NCBI GenBank assembly: GCA_025353105.1 | Contig: JANXRG010000067.1 | Span: 1-64,000 of the forward strand | Source of the DNA: Verrucomicrobiota bacterium | Lineage (GTDB): Bacteria; Verrucomicrobiota; Verrucomicrobiia; Chthoniobacterales; SZAS-18 | Reading direction: 5' to 3' | DNA length: 64,000 nt | In this document: piece after piece, positions 45,968-53,466 of the stretch | Layout: each line of letters starts with the position of its first letter | Position numbering within the stretch: the first letter of the stretch is position 1 | Notes under the pieces: generated by a model | What the model was told of the DNA's origin: nothing | Databases searched by the model: none | What the model saw: the letters and a program-made list of their open reading frames with translations, nothing else | Position numbers and translations under genes: made by a program

Positions 45968-46978
45968 TTAAAGCCGAAGCAACCAGCAGCCCGTGAGAAC
46001 AAACGCCAGCAGCCCGAACCAGCTGACGATGAAGGCCAACGCCGCACGCAGGCCGTGCTCACGCAGGCGCGCGTAATCCACCTGTAGGCCCAAGCCGGCC
46101 ATGCCCATTGTCATCAGGAACAGCCCCACGAAGAGCATCCAGGCGCCCATCGACCGCACGATGGCCGCCTGGCCGGTGGCGCGCAGGACGAGGAAATTAA
46201 CGACGCCGACCGCGAAGAATCCCACCACAAACCAAGGGAACGGGACGTTCACCTTCGCCTCCCCGCCGCGGCGATGCAACACCGCGACCAAAATGAGAAT
46301 CACGGGCGCCAGCAACAAGACGCGGACCAGTTTTGTGACCGTCCCCACATCGAGTGCCGCCGGAACCGGCGTCACCGCGGCCAGCACTTGCGCCACCTCG
46401 TGCAGGCTCGCGCCCGCGACCACGCCATAGTATTGCGCGTGCCAGCCCAACGCGGCCTGCACCGCAATCAGCGCCAGCGCCGCGCCGGTGCCGATCACCG
46501 TGACCAGCACGAGGGCCAGCGCCGATTCATCCTCGCGGGCCCGCACGACCGGCGTCGCCGCGACAATGGCGGACGCGCCACAGATGCCGCTCCCGATCGC
46601 CACGAGCCATCCCATTGATTCCTCCAGTCCGAAGAGGCGCGAAATCCAGCGGACGAAGAAAAGGGAAAACGTGATGACGGCCAAATCGAGGACGAGAATC
46701 TTCCAGCCGGCGCCGAGGATCAGGTCGAAATTCAATCGCACGCCCAGAAGAACGATGCCAAAGCGCAGCAAGGCCTTCGCCGCGTAGGTGAATCCCGATT
46801 TGTATTCCGCCGGTGGCGTGACGGCGGCCCGGATGATCATCGCGATCACCAGCGCTACCGCCAGCGGGCCGATGATGTTCAAGATCGGAAGCTTCGCGAC
46901 CCAATACCCAGCGGTCGCGACGACTGCCGAAAAAAGCAGACCGGGCAGAAACCCCGCTGTTTTGAACTCGGAAATCAT
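45968..46978 (-). CDS. UPF0324/YeiH-family putative sulfate (sulfite) exporter, TauZ/SuyZ-like
   Basis: A 336-residue membrane protein with about ten hydrophobic segments. LPGLLFSAVVATAGYWVAKL starts it, followed by GFTYAAKALLRFGIVLLGVRL, the conserved GSGICGASAIVAATPVV, GVVAGASLHEVAQVLAA, and a closing MGMAGLGLQVDYARLREHGL. This is the UPF0324/PSE family, in which TauZ/SuyZ of Paracoccus are proposed to export sulfate or sulfite made from sulfonates. Its ATG overlaps the acyl-CoA ligase stop (ATGA), so expression is coupled. It would remove the oxyanion released by Xsc. The exported ion is unproven. Confidence 0.88.
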   Translation of the reverse strand: MISEFKTAGFLPGLLFSAVVATAGYWVAKLPILNIIGPLAVALVIAMIIRAAVTPPAEYKSGFTYAAKALLRFGIVLLGVRLNFDLILGAGWKILVLDLAVITFSLFFVRWISRLFGLEESMGWLVAIGSGICGASAIVAATPVVRAREDESALALVLVTVIGTGAALALIAVQAALGWHAQYYGVVAGASLHEVAQVLAAVTPVPAALDVGTVTKLVRVLLLAPVILILVAVLHRRGGEAKVNVPFPWFVVGFFAVGVVNFLVLRATGQAAIVRSMGAWMLFVGLFLMTMGMAGLGLQVDYARLREHGLRAALAFIVSWFGLLAFVLTGCWLLRL

Positions 46979-48489
46979 GAATGGAGTTCCGCGAGCTTGA
47001 GCCGTTGCACCTTGCCCGACGGACCGCGCGGCAGGTCGTCCACGAAGAGAAGCACCTTGGGAGTCTTGTACTTTCCGAGTTCCGCCAGCGCGAATTCCCG
47101 CAGTTCCGCTTCCAGGCAGGCGCATCCCGACTTGAGGATCACGCAGGCCATGATCTCCTGTCCGTAATGTGGATCGGGAATGCCGACGGCGGCTGCTTCC
47201 AGCACCGCAGGATGCTTCATCAACGCCTCGTCAATCTCGCGCGGCGCGATGTTCTCCCCGCCCTTGATGATCAATTCCTTCAACCGGCCGGTCACGAAAT
47301 AGAATCCGTCCGGGTCGCGATAACCAAGATCGCCCGAGCGCAGCCAGCCGCCGGCGTAAAATGATTTTTCCGTCGCTTCGGGATTCTTGTAATAGCTGGC
47401 GAGAACGTTATCCCCGCGGATGCAAATCTCTCCGGGGGTTCCGTCCGGCACATCGCGGCCTTCCAGATCCACGATCTTGGCCTCGTTGCCGAACGCGATG
47501 CCAGGGCTTCCGTACTTGCGCTTAGCCGGATCGAGCGGGTTGGTGAAGCAGGGTGCCGCGGTCTCCGTCATGCCCATCGTTTCGATGATGCCGATGCCAA
47601 ACTTCTCCTCAAAAGCGCGGTGCAACTCCGGCGGGAGCGGCGCGCTGGCACTGCGCGCAAATCGAACGGAAGGAACTTTGACCCCCCTGGCGAGCGGCCC
47701 CGGGGCATTCAACAAATACGAAACGATCGTCGGCACAAAATTCAGCCAGGTGCATCCGTGTTCGCGCGCGGTCTGCCAGTAGTTCGTCGCGCTGAATTTG
47801 CGCGGAAGGACCACGCTGCCTCCACTGACGAGCGGCGCGACCGCCGTCACAATCTGCCCATTGATGTGGTAGAGAGGCAGGACGCAGAGCACGCGGTCAC
47901 TTTCCGTCAGGGCGTGCGCCGCACTCGTGTACTCGCCGCCGGCGACGACGTTCTGGTGCGAGAGCAAAACCCCCTTCGGCTGGCCGGTCGTGCCGGACGT
48001 ATACATCAACAGCGCGTCGTCCGGCGGGGTGACCCGGGGCAGTTGCTCCGCCGAAAGAGGATTGGCCGGAGGAAGAGCGGTCGAGTCGACATCGATTTCC
48101 AAGATCGTGATGTCGCGACCGATGGCCGCGATTGCCTCGCGCAGCCGGCCCATTTCCGCGCCGTGGGCAAAGACGACGCGCGTGTCCGAGTGTTCGAGAA
48201 CGTAGCGGAGTTGGGAGGCTTGCGAGAGCAGGTTAATCGGCGCGACCGTGAACCCGCCGTACATGATGCCGAGCAGGAGCGCACCGGTTTGGTAACCGTT
48301 GCACATCATCAACGAAACCTTTTCCCCAGGGCGCACGCCCAAGGCCAGCAACTGCGCGGTCAGAGCGCGCGCGTGACGCTGCAAGTCGCCGTACGTCAGG
48401 ATTGCGCCCGTCTCCGGTGCGATCAGAAAGACGCGGTCCGGTTGCGTGGCGGCGCGATGATCCAGATGGGCGCGAATCGTGCGAAGCAT
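46975..48489 (-). CDS. AMP-forming acyl-CoA ligase, sulfoacetate-CoA ligase (SauT-like) candidate
   Basis: A 504-residue ANL-superfamily enzyme. The ATP loop LLMYTSGTTGQPKGVLLSHQ, SSAPLPPELH-like text (RSASAPLPPELHRAFEEKFG), and MGMTETAAPCFTNPL come first. GWLRSGDLGYRDPDGFYFVT, then KELIIKGGENIAPREIDEAL, and the final Lys in GPSGKVQRLK complete the set. General annotation would be a fatty or medium-chain acyl-CoA ligase. Between an acylating aldehyde dehydrogenase and a sulfur-anion exporter it fits SauT, which activates sulfoacetate to sulfoacetyl-CoA. I chose ATG 48489 at the family start; the frame runs on into the mobile element upstream. No diagnostic substrate residue is claimed. Confidence 0.88.
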   Translation of the reverse strand: MLRTIRAHLDHRAATQPDRVFLIAPETGAILTYGDLQRHARALTAQLLALGVRPGEKVSLMMCNGYQTGALLLGIMYGGFTVAPINLLSQASQLRYVLEHSDTRVVFAHGAEMGRLREAIAAIGRDITILEIDVDSTALPPANPLSAEQLPRVTPPDDALLMYTSGTTGQPKGVLLSHQNVVAGGEYTSAAHALTESDRVLCVLPLYHINGQIVTAVAPLVSGGSVVLPRKFSATNYWQTAREHGCTWLNFVPTIVSYLLNAPGPLARGVKVPSVRFARSASAPLPPELHRAFEEKFGIGIIETMGMTETAAPCFTNPLDPAKRKYGSPGIAFGNEAKIVDLEGRDVPDGTPGEICIRGDNVLASYYKNPEATEKSFYAGGWLRSGDLGYRDPDGFYFVTGRLKELIIKGGENIAPREIDEALMKHPAVLEAAAVGIPDPHYGQEIMACVILKSGCACLEAELREFALAELGKYKTPKVLLFVDDLPRGPSGKVQRLKLAELHS

Positions 48490-48503
48490 CGGGACGGGGC
48501 GAC

Positions 48504-48783
48504 TAGGAGCCTGTTGAAATACTGGCATGGCCCGCGCGAGCGTCGCTTGGGCTGGCGGGCGGTGGCGTGAGGAGGGAGCGGGTTCCATCAACCCCGCGAC
48601 CGACGAGCAACGCCGGCAGACGGCCCAAGCCACGTTCGCCCTCCGGGTTGCGCCGCTTCTTCGCTTGGGCGGCGTCGCCGCGCTCGGGCAGGATCGCCTT
48701 GGATCCAGCCGCTTCGCGCGCTCCTTGCCCAAGCCAAAAATCGACTGCAACGCGGGTCATGCCAGTATTTCAATACGCTCCTA
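48504..48783. mobile_element. MITE-like element with 33-nt terminal inverted repeats and TA ends
   Basis: The left end (48504-48536) and right end (48751-48783) form an inverted repeat with 30 of 33 positions matching. The core TTGAAATACTGGCATG is perfect on both sides. The element is 280 nt including a TA at each outer end, which fits the TA target duplication of IS630/Tc1-mariner elements; it encodes no transposase. It separates the ligase and the aldehyde dehydrogenase genes. The right-hand TA plus the first base of the repeat forms the TAG stop of the dehydrogenase. Confidence 0.82.
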
Positions 48784-50199
48784 AACGCCGTGCTTTTTCC
48801 GGTAGGCGCCGAACAACTCCTCGTCCGTCACCTCGCGCGGCGGAATCGTGCGGGAAATGCGCGTAATATTCAGATAGTGCCGGTAATTCAGATTCTCGGA
48901 AAAATTATTCCGGCCCCACGTGCCGCAGCCCATCGAAAGCGAGAACGGCAGGCCATTGTCAAAGCTGCCGCCCGTGGCGTAACAATGGGCCTGGTTCACG
49001 ATGACGCGGCAGACTGGCAGCTCCAATCCAAGGCGGAGGATGCGCGCGTCGTCGCGCGAATGCATTCCCACCGAATGCCCGGCGCCCTGGTACGCGTAGA
49101 TTGCCGCCGTGATTTCGACGGCGTGGTCAAAGTCACGCGCCCGGTACACGGCGAGCACGGGCGAAAGCTTCTCCCCGGAGAAAGGATGGCCCGGACCCAC
49201 GCCGTTCTCTTCCACCATCAAAATTGCCGCATCGCGCAAATCAGACCGGGCCAGTCCGGCGATTTCCGCGACGCGCGCGGCGCTCTGCGCGGTGGCGATC
49301 GCCGAAAGCTTTCCACCCGGGAACATGACCGCCTGCAGCGTGGCTTTTTCCGCGGAGTCAAGCATCACGGCGCCCTCGCGCCGCAGGGCGGCAAGCATCG
49401 CATCATAAACGGCCTCGACGACGATGACCGAATTTTCCGACGAGCAACTCGTCGCGTGGTCGAACGTCTTGGACTGCCGGATTAATTCCGCCGCACTTGG
49501 GAGATCGGCGGTCTCGTCCACGATCGAGACCACGTTTCCCGCCCCCACGCCGAACGCCGGCGTGCCGGAGACCGCGGCGGCCCGCACGTTTGCGCGTGAG
49601 CCAGTCACGACCACGAGGTCGGCCTGCCGCAACAATTCCGCGCTGGTTTCCTTCGTCACCGGCGCGGGCAGCATCTGCACGAGATCGCGCGGGGCACCCA
49701 CGCGATCGAGTTCCGCGTGGATGAATTCGAGCAGCTTCGCGCAGGTGCTCCAACCTTTCGGGGACGGCGAAAGGATGACCGCGTTCCGTCCCTTCAACGC
49801 ATTGATGACCTTGTTTGCGGGCGTCGCGCCCGGATTCGTGGAAGGCGTCACGGCCGCCACCACGCCCACCGGGCGCGCAATCTCCACGAGGCCGAGCTCG
49901 GGAAATTCGGCGATGACGCCGACCGTTTTCACCCCGCGTAAATCGCGCAGCAATCCCATCGTCTTGCGCCGGTTTTTCGTGAACTTGTCTTCCGCCTTGC
50001 CCAGGCCGGTGTCCGCGACCGCGAGATCCGCGAGCAGCCGATTGCGGCCGGGTTCCACGATGGCCCAGCCGGCGGCGGTCACGACTTCATCCACCGCGGC
50101 CTGATCGTATCGCTCGAAGGCCCGCTGCGCCGCCCCTGCTCGCTCGACGAGCGAGCGCACAAGTTGCACGGCCGGCGATGACTCATTGGTCGGTTCCAT
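48781..50199 (-). CDS. Acylating aldehyde dehydrogenase, sulfoacetaldehyde dehydrogenase (SauS-like) candidate
   Basis: A 472-residue CoA-acylating aldehyde dehydrogenase without the alcohol dehydrogenase half. PVGVVAAVTPSTNPGATPAN marks the cofactor region, VVVTGSRANVRAAAVSGTPA and GVGAGNVVSIVDETAD follow, and the catalytic Cys lies in FDHATSCSSENSVIVVEA. The C-terminus has GGSFDNGLPFSLSMGCGTWG and NNFSENLNYRHYLNITRI. The motif SCSSENS, rather than the CASEQ of AdhE/EutE, and the Xsc neighbour favour SauS, which reduces sulfoacetyl-CoA to sulfoacetaldehyde. Its stop codon is formed by the end of the MITE-like element, so the last residues may differ from the ancestral protein. Confidence 0.9.
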   Translation of the reverse strand: MEPTNESSPAVQLVRSLVERAGAAQRAFERYDQAAVDEVVTAAGWAIVEPGRNRLLADLAVADTGLGKAEDKFTKNRRKTMGLLRDLRGVKTVGVIAEFPELGLVEIARPVGVVAAVTPSTNPGATPANKVINALKGRNAVILSPSPKGWSTCAKLLEFIHAELDRVGAPRDLVQMLPAPVTKETSAELLRQADLVVVTGSRANVRAAAVSGTPAFGVGAGNVVSIVDETADLPSAAELIRQSKTFDHATSCSSENSVIVVEAVYDAMLAALRREGAVMLDSAEKATLQAVMFPGGKLSAIATAQSAARVAEIAGLARSDLRDAAILMVEENGVGPGHPFSGEKLSPVLAVYRARDFDHAVEITAAIYAYQGAGHSVGMHSRDDARILRLGLELPVCRVIVNQAHCYATGGSFDNGLPFSLSMGCGTWGRNNFSENLNYRHYLNITRISRTIPPREVTDEELFGAYRKKHGV

Positions 50200-50211: not shown

Positions 50212-51510
50212 TCAGCCGGCCGTCGGCGCCGTAGTCGGGGCGACCGGTGCCTCGGTGGGATCGACGACATGCTTGTTCGGGTTGATGAAGAAGGCACAGA
50301 TCGCGCCGATGGCGAGCAGGCCGGCCGAAAGCAGAAATGCCAGTTTATAGTTGCCGGTGTTTTGAATCAGGAAACCAAACGCGACCGGCGCAATCATGCC
50401 CGCGACGCCAAAGCCCGTATTCATCATTCCCGCCGCGGTCCCGCCGTAGCGGCCCGCAATGTCGATCGGGAGGCTCCAGAGCACGGCATTCGTCAGCTCG
50501 ATCATGAAGAAAGCGCCGGCGAGCAGCCAGACGGCGGTTTCCACCGATTTCGCGAACGGAGCCGGAACCATGAAACAAACCGCACCGCCCAGGCCGACGA
50601 TGAGGAGGCTTAGGCGCGCCAGGCGCAGATTGCCCGTCCGCCGGTAGATGAAGTCGGACAAAACGCCGCCGAGCGTGTCACCCACGACTCCGGCGAGCAG
50701 CGTCAGCGTGGAAAAGAGCGCCATCTTTTTCAGGTCGACCTTGTAAGTGTCGGCGAAGAAAGAAGGCAGCCACGTCAGAAACACCCACAACGACCAGCCG
50801 TAACAAAAATCCACGAAGGTCACGAGCCACATGCGCCGGATCATCTCCGCCCACGGCGTGGGGGGCGCCTTCTTCGACGATTGCGCGATTACCGCCGCGC
50901 CGATTTCATCGATTTCCTGCGGTGAGACACCCTTCTTTTGCAGGGGTGAATCACGAAACCAGAAATACCACCACACCACCCAAAGCAGGCTGACCATGCC
51001 GAGGGAGATAAACGCGAAACGCCAGTCGCGGGCGAGGACCAGCCACGCCACGATCGGGGGTGTCACCGCGCCGCCGAGCCGCGCAAAGCTGTGCGTGATG
51101 CCCTGCGCGAAGCCGCGTTCGCCTTTCGGCAGCCACCAGGTGAATGCCCGCGTGGCCGTGGGAAAGGCCCCGCCCTCGCCGATGCCCAGGAGGACGCGCG
51201 AAAGAACCAGGGTCAGGATTCCGCCGGAAAATCCCGTCCAAATCGTCGCCACCGACCAGATGACTCCCAGCAGCGTCAACGTGAAGCGCGGACCGTACTT
51301 GTCCGAAAACCACCCGCCGAGAATCTGCATCGCGGCGTACGGATAAGCGAAGGCGGAGAAGACGAATCCGAGTTGCGTCTTATTCAAGCCAAGCGCCTTG
51401 GCAATCTCCGGCCCGGCCACGGAGATGTTCACGCGGTCGATGTACGTGATGAAATACATCACGCACAGGATGCCAATCACGCCGTAGCGGTATCTGAAGA
51501 ATCGGTTCAT
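50212..51510 (-). CDS. ACS-family MFS transporter, sulfoacetate uptake (SauU-like) candidate
   Basis: A 432-residue permease with 12 predicted helices. The start YGVIGILCVMYFITYIDRVN, GFVFSAFAYPYAAMQILGGW followed by FSDKYGPRFTL, and RVLLGIGEGGAFPTATRAF mark the anion:cation symporter group. SPLQKKGVSPQEIDEI is the usual central cytoplasmic loop. It lies 12 bases upstream of the aldehyde dehydrogenase on the same strand, as sauU accompanies sauS and sauT in Cupriavidus. The cargo is likely sulfoacetate or another short organic anion, by context. Confidence 0.9.
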   Translation of the reverse strand: MNRFFRYRYGVIGILCVMYFITYIDRVNISVAGPEIAKALGLNKTQLGFVFSAFAYPYAAMQILGGWFSDKYGPRFTLTLLGVIWSVATIWTGFSGGILTLVLSRVLLGIGEGGAFPTATRAFTWWLPKGERGFAQGITHSFARLGGAVTPPIVAWLVLARDWRFAFISLGMVSLLWVVWWYFWFRDSPLQKKGVSPQEIDEIGAAVIAQSSKKAPPTPWAEMIRRMWLVTFVDFCYGWSLWVFLTWLPSFFADTYKVDLKKMALFSTLTLLAGVVGDTLGGVLSDFIYRRTGNLRLARLSLLIVGLGGAVCFMVPAPFAKSVETAVWLLAGAFFMIELTNAVLWSLPIDIAGRYGGTAAGMMNTGFGVAGMIAPVAFGFLIQNTGNYKLAFLLSAGLLAIGAICAFFINPNKHVVDPTEAPVAPTTAPTAG

Positions 51511-51627: not shown

Positions 51628-53358
51628 TTAAATGCCCGGCGCGCTGTGCGCCTTGTATTTGTCCAGGATGCGCTTCGGCTGCTTGAAGGCATCGCGGCGG
51701 AACGGGTCGCCCAGTTCACGCGTGAGATTAATGTTCACGATCGTGCACTTGTTGGACGCGACGGCCTCCCGGAGTGCATCGCCGACTTCGTCCTCGTCCG
51801 AAACCGTGATGCCGTTACCGCCCATCGCCTTCGCGACGTCAGCAAAGTCCGGATTTGTGAGATTCGAGCCCACGAAACGATCACCGAAGTAATCAACCTG
51901 GTTTTTCTTTTCGGCGCCCCATTGCTGGTTATTAAAGATCACGCCAACGACGGGAATATCCTCGCGCACGCACGTCATCACTTCCGCCAGGCTCATGCCC
52001 CAGGCGCCGTCGCCGACATATGCGATGGCCGGACGATCGGGCCGGCCAACCTTGGCGCCCATCGCCGTCGGGAACGCGTAACCGCAATTTCCAAAGCTCA
52101 TCGCCGCCATGAAACTGCCGGGCTCTTCGAAGTGCAGGTAGCTGTTCGAGACCGAGCAGACATTTCCGATGTCGGTCGCGACCATGGCGTTCTTCGGCAT
52201 GGCCTTCGCCAGCGCCGCGAGCGCGCGGCGGGGACCGATCTTCCCGGGCTCGTTGGGCGACGGCCAATTGGCCAGTTCATCGCGCCACGCGTCTTTCTCC
52301 GCTTTGATTTCGTGGAGGCGCGCTTCATTCCGCGGACGCTCGCCGCCCAGCTTTTTGAGCCGTTGGAGAATGTCCGCCGCGGCGAGTCGGGCGTCACCGC
52401 AGACCCCGACGGAGATTGGCTTCACGAGGCCGAGCATGCGGTGGTCGGCGTCGATCTGCACGATCTTCGCGTTCTTCGGCCAGTAATCGAGGCCGTGTTG
52501 CGGCAGCGTGCCGAAGGGCCCAAGGCGCGAACCGAGGGCCAGGACCACGTCCGCCTTGGCCATCAGCTTCATCGCTGCCTTCGAGCCCTGGTAGCCCAGC
52601 GGGCCGCAGGCGAGCGGATGACTCGCGGGAAACGAGTCGTTGTGCAGGTAGCTGTTGACGACCGGCGCGCTGAGATACTCCGCGAGCGCCTTGCATTCCG
52701 CCACGCCGCCGGAAAAAATCACGCCGCCGCCGGCGAGGATGACCGGGAATTTTGCCCCGGCCAGCAGCTTCGCCGCGGCTTCGAGCGACTCCGGTCCGCC
52801 GGGTCCGCGCTCAATGATCTGCGGCTGCGGGATGGCGACCTCGACGTCGCCGTAGAAATAATCGCGCGGGATGTTGATCTGCGCGGGACCGCGCTCGGCC
52901 AGCGCGAGCGTAAACGCACGGTGCGTGAGCTCCGCCAGCCGATGCGGCGAGCTCACGTGCACCTGATATTTGGTGATCTTCGAGAAGATCGGCATCTGCT
53001 CGGTTTCCTGGAATCCCCCGTGCCCCATCGAGAGGCTGCCGGATTCCGGCGTGATGACGACAATCGGGGAATGCGCCCAGTACGCCGCCGCGACCGCGGT
53101 GACGAAGTTGGTGATGCCGGGCCCGTTCTGCGCGATGCACACGCCGTGCCGACCGGTCACGCGCGAAAAGCCATCGGCCGCATGCGCGGCCGCCTGTTCG
53201 TGGGCCACGGAAATAAAGCGGATGCCGGCCAGCGGAAAGAGGTCGAGCGCATCCATGTAGGCCGAGCCGACAATGCCGAAGACCTCCTTCACCCCCTGCG
53301 CGACGAGAGTTTCGACAAACGCTTCGCTGGGGGACATGCGGATTTTTTGAGGACTCAT
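51628..53358 (-). CDS. xsc: Sulfoacetaldehyde acetyltransferase
   Basis: A 576-residue thiamine diphosphate enzyme that converts sulfoacetaldehyde and phosphate to acetyl phosphate and sulfite. The start MSPSEAFVETLVAQGVKEVF then GIVGSAYMDALDLFPLAGIR is the Xsc opening, with the catalytic Glu in SVAHEQAAAHAADGFSR and the conserved AQNGPGITNFVTAVAAAYWA. GGFQETEQMPIFSKITKYQV and LNIPRDYFYGD-like INIPRDYFYGDVEVAI are likewise Xsc-specific rather than acetolactate synthase-like. The TPP motif is GDGAWGMSLAEVMTCVRED through FNNQQWGAEKKNQ. ATG 53358 was chosen. It is the first gene of the leftward operon and the strongest evidence that the island handles C2 sulfonates. Confidence 0.95.
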   Translation of the reverse strand: MSPQKIRMSPSEAFVETLVAQGVKEVFGIVGSAYMDALDLFPLAGIRFISVAHEQAAAHAADGFSRVTGRHGVCIAQNGPGITNFVTAVAAAYWAHSPIVVITPESGSLSMGHGGFQETEQMPIFSKITKYQVHVSSPHRLAELTHRAFTLALAERGPAQINIPRDYFYGDVEVAIPQPQIIERGPGGPESLEAAAKLLAGAKFPVILAGGGVIFSGGVAECKALAEYLSAPVVNSYLHNDSFPASHPLACGPLGYQGSKAAMKLMAKADVVLALGSRLGPFGTLPQHGLDYWPKNAKIVQIDADHRMLGLVKPISVGVCGDARLAAADILQRLKKLGGERPRNEARLHEIKAEKDAWRDELANWPSPNEPGKIGPRRALAALAKAMPKNAMVATDIGNVCSVSNSYLHFEEPGSFMAAMSFGNCGYAFPTAMGAKVGRPDRPAIAYVGDGAWGMSLAEVMTCVREDIPVVGVIFNNQQWGAEKKNQVDYFGDRFVGSNLTNPDFADVAKAMGGNGITVSDEDEVGDALREAVASNKCTIVNINLTRELGDPFRRDAFKQPKRILDKYKAHSAPGI

Positions 53359-53466
53359 GGACGGTGGAGAATGGGATGGAATGGGAACAGACGTCGGCCG
53401 GACGGGGGCGTCAGCGCGACCCGTTTTGCCCCGAACGCGGCCGCTCGGCAAGAATTATTTTCTAAA

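Follow-up and report, generated by a model that had tools for sequence, protein, structure and literature searches.

The window, by which is meant the whole 64,000 nt stretch of DNA analysed here, carries a gene for the acylating sulfoacetaldehyde dehydrogenase SauS and, downstream of it, a gene for an acyl-CoA ligase. These are adjoined by genes for the sulfoacetaldehyde acetyltransferase Xsc, an MFS transporter and a YeiH-type putative sulfate exporter, so that the setting is a sulfonate operon. A 280 nt element with inverted ends lies between the dehydrogenase and the ligase (Table 1).

Table 1. Features of the SauS locus, with their positions in the window and the basis of each.
Feature	Position	Strand	Basis or remark
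Whole element, both TA included	48504..48783	.	280 nt; inverted ends, copies in the same genome, shuffles
Left terminal inverted repeat with its TA	48504..48536	+	End comparison, arm-pair search, covariation of ends
Hairpin 1	48537..48638	+	Fold z of whole element, covariation
Short hairpin CCC-TCC-GGG between the two large hairpins	48639..48647	+	Covariation
Hairpin 2	48648..48750	+	Covariation; covariance model R1 spans 48639-48753
Right terminal inverted repeat with its TA	48751..48783	-	End comparison, arm-pair search, covariation of ends
TAG stop codon of SauS (target TA + first G of the element)	48781..48783	-	Sequence, joined flanks
SauS, acylating sulfoacetaldehyde dehydrogenase	48781..50199	-	NF047625, 748.9 bits (cut-off 600)
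Acyl-CoA ligase gene, downstream of the element (ATG 48489-48487)	46975..48489	-	Sequence, profile match
MFS transporter	50212..51510	-	Profile match
Sulfoacetaldehyde acetyltransferase Xsc	51628..53451	-	ORF as listed; true start probably further in
YeiH-type putative sulfate exporter	45968..47125	-	ORF as listed; true start probably further in

The two extremities of the element are inverted copies of one another: TAGGAGCCTGTTGAAATACTGGCATGGCCCGCG, read from 48504, and TAGGAGCGTATTGAAATACTGGCATGACCCGCG, read from 48783 on the opposite strand, agree at 30 of 33 positions, and a repeat search on the element extended the inverted arms to 39 nt at 87%. This confirms from the sequence what the preliminary description had reported, namely inverted ends of 33 nt and TA on both sides of a 280-nt element. 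The end pattern was found at two places in the window, both of them ends of the element (0.00 expected from shuffles). Its limits were taken as the points where the likeness among 18 two-ended copies ends. ORFs within the element, or slightly overrunning its limits, are at most 99 aa in the ORF list, with no transposase gene. The preliminary description held that the element could affect expression of the ligase and exporter genes; a simple scan found no promoter- or terminator-like site in it.

Further copies, which had been named as a check on the preliminary description, were found in the same genome. A search with the element gave 61 aligned pieces, including ten of full length at 83–100% identity (window copy counted), and the end pattern had 36 matches, compared to none for the reversed control. 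The copies examined comprise 18 with two ends (ten of 279–280 nt, and eight internally deleted, at 140–241 nt) and seven lone ends; their boundaries agree and their flanks differ. The lone ends include L049, with a weak second end 193 nt off, and L050, where the second end, 111 nt off, is probably real and marks a short deleted copy. The L050 copy follows an ORF that resembles, by eye, methionyl-tRNA formyltransferase; this ORF enters the element for a few codons and stops at TGA. Among the two-ended copies, TA is present on both sides in seven, on one side in nine and on neither in two, and the target YTAR fits 12. With both TAs kept in so few, and YTAR in two thirds, the family is old in this genome, and no recent transposition is demonstrated. 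No match was found when plasmid records were searched with the element. Being short and without a transposase gene, with terminal inverted repeats, dispersed copies and a target duplication, the element is a MITE; its MITE-like nature had been suggested at the outset, and the inverted ends, TA flanks and dispersed copies bear this out.

At its right end the element meets the stop codon of SauS. As had been proposed, this codon is made of TA and the first base of the repeat, G, giving TAG at 48783-48781 on the minus strand, and the insertion is at the extreme 3′ end of the gene, the limit of the element being the stop codon itself. The gap between the element and the ligase gene, first given as 15 bases, is 14 (48490-48503). 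With its flanks joined, the site reads GGC GTT TAG TCGCCCCGTCCCG ATG, with 13 bases to the ligase start. Since the flanks join as GTT-TAG-TC, the SauS stop was already TAG before the insertion and the C-terminus is unchanged; the match to NF047625 extends to position 463 of 464. The idea that the insertion had altered the last residues of SauS was rejected on these two grounds. In the sulfonate operon, then, an intact dehydrogenase gene is separated from the ligase gene by the inserted element.

An empty SauS site was sought in relatives, but the sole SauS-bearing relative, G002, has a different palindromic repeat at the same codon. In G002 (L081 3626-3767, G002:C146) this repeat stands directly after the SauS codon, and the SauS frame continues into it for a further 22 residues. 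A search with it produced 90 aligned pieces in G002 and no match in the genome of the window element.

Both ends of the element read TA-G inwards, so that insertion at the TA of a TAA or TAG codon leaves TAG in either orientation, and with TAG regenerated the gene product is unchanged. Such landings are frequent. At 14 of the 25 sites in the genome of origin, the coding frame that scores best contains an ORF of 100 codons or more whose stop codon is the boundary of the element. Eleven of these genes were verified by Pfam/NCBIfam: SauS, an ABC transporter, a transport permease, 6-phosphogluconate dehydrogenase, FtsX, DUF362, LptF/G, an ATP-synthase-type ATPase, an MFS protein, a glycosyltransferase 2 and a dehydroquinase. 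The ORFs at the other three (L006, L008 and L051) had no Pfam/NCBIfam family match. Joining the far flank restored TAA or TAG in all ten two-ended cases, and never a tyrosine codon, so that genes cut short at a tyrosine codon do not account for the pattern in these ten. At L004, another two-ended site, the joined flanks read TAC, yet only three codons are open in that frame.

TA occurs in the window 21 times at stop codons, 148 times between genes and 622 times inside genes; for YTAR the counts are 12, 29 and 49. Compared to non-coding YTAR sites (0.29 per site expected), 14 of 25 has a P of 0.0047, and the 11 verified genes a P of 0.084; compared to all non-coding TA sites the values are 2.4e-7 and 9e-5, the null being taken from one 64-kb window with a simple home-made gene finder. 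The values for YTAR indicate that target preference, together with loss of harmful insertions, explains most stop-codon landings, and a further bias is possible. An active targeting of stop codons, over and above these two factors, would account for the excess of the 14 sites over the YTAR expectation and for the recurrence of the same pattern with three duplication lengths (see below). It is nevertheless rather doubtful: the excess shrinks when only the family-verified genes are counted, it is measured against a null from a single window, and YTAR itself fits only 12 of the 18 targets.

The pattern was also seen in other genomes. Over all groups, 184 ends were compared, and at 83 of them the longest nearby ORF (at least 100 codons) runs towards the element, a count that uses the longest ORF rather than annotation and leaves out L225 as a repeat of L138. 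Twenty-six of the 83 ORFs stop at −2, −3 or −4, within the target duplication, and no other offset has more than four. Outside the genome of origin 21 ends were read and 17 proteins compared to Pfam, of which 14 matched (TamB, cation efflux, peptidase S49, DBI_PRT phosphoribosyltransferase, Tex, ABC transporter, FtsX, SCO1, MazG, LPG synthase, histidine kinase, DnaA, TauE and AI-2E transporter); the proteins at L218, L074 and L198 had no Pfam match. At L133, in a genome from a remote part of the phylum, a dnaA gene (Pfam Bac_DnaA) has its stop codon at the element boundary.

Counting the genome of origin, 27 of 147 genomes contained similar DNA; the six further genomes of its family gave none. 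Some of the weaker matches in this search (L077, L078) proved to be chance matches in genes and were set aside. The full relatives are 273–282 nt long and share one layout (terminal repeat, hairpin, CCC-TCC-GGG, hairpin, terminal repeat), several of them with different end sequences. Model R1, a covariance model of hairpin 2 that was trained on members of this family, found 15 copies in the genome of origin. It matched 60 of 213 genomes of the order, again counting that genome and again with none of six others in the same family. In an even sample of 387 genomes across the phylum, 14 matched, that genome also counted, and members of other classes were among them. The two-hairpin architecture is visible by eye in most of the phylum loci; the weak matches rest on such inspection, which at several loci covered part of the element. 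The element thus belongs to a superfamily that spans the phylum and is marked by a conserved core of two hairpins. Its ends and target duplications vary by lineage, and they have a narrower distribution than the core. No description of the superfamily was found in the literature within reach of the search, which lay for the most part outside subscription journals. Short one-hairpin forms of about 163–172 nt, with other ends (CAGCCTGTTGAAAAA, GAGCGTTTT), were seen at L066, L074, L070 and L075 in two genera of the order.

The window element has a predicted fold of −168.7 kcal/mol (z −8.6), and the opposite strand a z of −7.5. In an RNAalifold prediction on 20 aligned elements there are 73 pairs, 48 of them with change on both sides. 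For the inner 42 pairs, 93.2% of cells are paired, compared to 31.6–40.4% with partners slid, and cells with a change on both sides number 111, compared to 16–25; none of 500 shuffles reached any of these measures, which are somewhat favoured by the structure having been taken from the alignment on which it was assessed. Covariation of the terminal repeats resembles that of the inner pairs. The two hairpins are alike as reverse complements with z of at least 2.4 in 12 of the 20 elements, and with z below 2 in the other eight (1.3 in the window copy).

Covariation across genera, the strong fold on both strands and the position of the element between co-directional genes would all be expected of a functional RNA, a regulator or mRNA processing site, whose structure is maintained and whose mobility is secondary. 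There is precedent in the ERIC and NEMIS RNAs, which are reported to act on mRNA stability in the accessible part of PMC2229807. This explanation is unlikely, however, as copies adjoin unrelated genes, the fold is about as good on one strand as on the other, species within a single genus may have a given locus occupied, scarred or empty (see below), and the structure corresponds to no Rfam family: at gathering thresholds Rfam gave two tRNAs only in the window, and at permissive thresholds two matches in the element, both far under their gathering scores.

The covariation could also be mutational instead of selective. Templated changes occur where long inverted arms stand close together, which is the setting found here, and template switching in a long quasi-palindrome would perfect the arms and mimic compensatory change. 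Two observations go against such an origin and make it somewhat improbable: the imperfectly paired apical parts are likewise conserved, and the two heads are alike as reverse complements in the 12 elements noted above. The core may be preserved by selection for mobility, or templated repair of quasi-palindromes may keep its arms alike.

Target duplications differ between lineages, counted at boundaries set by family-specific end seeds (L227, L230 and L222 gave no ends and were left out). TA duplications were found in g33 (four of six), g25 (five of six), f12 (two of four) and G331 (three of nine). An identical 3-bp duplication is present in five of nine copies in G426 (TNA) and both copies in G104, while in G358 all nine have an identical 3-bp TNA duplication; with nine perfect duplications, the G358 family looks recently active. 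In G303, G379 and G370 together, 7 of 12 copies have an identical 4-bp duplication. The nine G358 copies are L114, L126, L135 and L196-L201, and the PF01609 matches of that genome showed no matching ends.

Duplications of 2 bp (TA), 3 bp (TNA) and 4 bp are the target duplication lengths of IS5 subgroups, and those of the superfamily fit this series. IS5 itself has a 4-bp target, according to the accessible part of PMC11677980. A link to IS5-family elements comes from G044, among the f12 relatives. Its 280-bp element ends in TA-GAACCTATCCCGAAACC, and two 827-bp insertion sequences in the same genome end in TA-GAACCTATCCCAAAACC (18 of 20 alike), with TA flanks like those of the 280-bp element; in one of the two the second end is weaker. 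Their transposase is of the IS5 family (NF033580 210.7 bits, cut-off 110; PF13340 and PF01609). Several IS5-type elements in the order begin with TA-GAGCCTGTT, close to TA-GGAGCCTGTTGAAA of the window element, and one of these is in the same genus; a same-genus start such as TA-GAGCCTGTTATG is similar to the end of the window element. An IS5 parent with the window element's own ends (TA-GGAGCCTGTTGAAATACTGG) was sought and was not found in the genome of origin or among the ends identified for 30 IS5-type loci. This genome also gave no matches to PF13358 (IS630, DDE_3), to PF01609 or to an IS5-family transposase query.

The preliminary description had pointed to a parent of the IS630/Tc1 type. 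A TA target duplication is the hallmark of IS630/Tc1-mariner elements, TA stands at both ends of the window element, and pneumococcal RUP, in the accessible part of PMC2229807, is thought to be moved by IS630-Spn1. An IS630/Tc1-mariner MITE is very unlikely all the same, given that the genome has no PF13358 match, that TA is not universal in the superfamily (sister families having 3-bp TNA and 4-bp duplications), and that the insertion sequences sharing ends with the 280-bp element of G044 are of the IS5 family. The mover is likely to have been an IS5-family transposase and not IS630, judging from another genus with other ends and from similar element starts in the same genus.

The fate of the element at one site could be followed in genus g33, where three species carry it after the same TamB-type gene. 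This gene was obtained from 30 of 35 g33 genomes, and 29 loci were compared, the incomplete L256 being left out. The element occupies the TamB stop codon at seven loci; the other 22 consist of six with short remnants and 16 that are empty. The remnants lie directly after the gene (L251, L253, L265, L266, L270 and L271, with L253 doubtful), and one such as TAGGAGCCTGAGATG is what would be expected after a deletion between two CCTG motifs, one close to the left end and the other at the right end. Across L247-L276, the TamB remnants resemble palindrome deletions between CCT or CCTG repeats at the two ends; slippage between such short repeats may have removed the long palindrome after insertion. 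At plain empty sites the stop codon is TAA or TGA, in most with an ATG one base later. At occupied loci the near end reads TAG; some have TAA as the far copy and several have TGA, so that not every locus retains an intact, plain TA duplication. Mapped on the TamB gene tree, occupancy needs a minimum of six changes and shows no clustering (216 of 500 shuffles are as low). The pattern reflects repeated loss, repeated gain, or both, and the remnants favour loss.

Taken together, the feature at the SauS stop codon is probably a MITE copy whose movement depended on an IS5-family transposase acting in trans, an enzyme with a preference for YTAR and a TA target duplication. That enzyme would since have been lost from the genome, or would never have been resident there. 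Landing on a stop codon is harmless because the first base of the element restores TAG, and copies may build up at these sites as such landings are neutral for the gene. The conserved core may be kept because it aids mobility or survival of the copies, while the outer ends would follow whichever IS5-family enzyme is at hand, giving duplications of 2, 3 or 4 bp by lineage. A broader history can be offered tentatively, as possible but short of probable. One lineage of parasitic DNA, keeping its two-hairpin core, would have spread through the phylum by changing transposase; its outer ends would have been swapped several times between IS5 subgroups with 2-, 3- and 4-bp duplications, and would regenerate a stop codon on landing. 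If this were true, the superfamily would represent in bacteria what modular non-autonomous elements are in eukaryotes, and would have an inherent means of sparing host genes.

MITEs that have TA ends and give rise to folded transcripts are well known, with ERIC, NEMIS, RUP and CIR as examples in the accessible part of PMC2229807, which is also the basis of the following comparisons. Like the window element, ERIC/IRU/RU-1 of enterobacteria are small and non-coding, with TA ends, terminal inverted repeats and a strong fold, and lie between co-transcribed genes; unlike it, they are 127 bp long, with a 7-bp terminal repeat and a stem formed from the two ends, compared to 280 bp, a 33-nt repeat, two further inner hairpins and a different phylum (PMC2229807). 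The Correia/NEMIS elements of Neisseria share terminal inverted repeats, TA ends and a folded transcript possibly cut by RNase III, but have a 24-bp terminal repeat, a length of 107 or 155 bp and a different core, and the accessible text makes no mention of placement at stop codons (PMC2229807). CIR of Caulobacter and Brucella has two long arms and a linker and is conserved between genera, but has no clear terminal inverted repeat, and its arms have no enclosing terminal stem, which the window element possesses (PMC2229807). The main text of a 2024 review of prokaryotic MITEs (PMC10969869) contains neither 'Verrucomicrobi-' nor 'stop codon' by word search.

Among systems with their own enzymes, the 827-bp IS5-family insertion sequence of G044 (DUF4096 and DDE_Tnp_1, NF033580) shares its terminal sequence (18 of 20) and TA flanks with the 280-bp element of the same genome, and differs from it in encoding a transposase. 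REP/REPIN systems with RAYT resemble the window element in having palindromic units in inverted pairs. They are not known to have a target duplication, and their units, which carry a GTAG or CGTC tag, are of 20–40 bp in the accessible descriptions, compared to 280 bp with terminal repeats and a duplication; size and target duplication thus argue against a REP/REPIN identity. A verrucomicrobium, O. terrae, is rich in GTAG repeats, according to the accessible part of PMC3733652.

The landings on stop codons offer a simple explanation for the persistence of a mobile element where genes are densely packed. The usual picture of a bacterial MITE is that of a deleted derivative of a single insertion sequence, confined to a narrow range of hosts. 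In this superfamily the folded core has outlasted the ends, is common to classes of one phylum and accompanies different target duplications, which opens the questions of what role the core plays and how non-autonomous elements change transposase.
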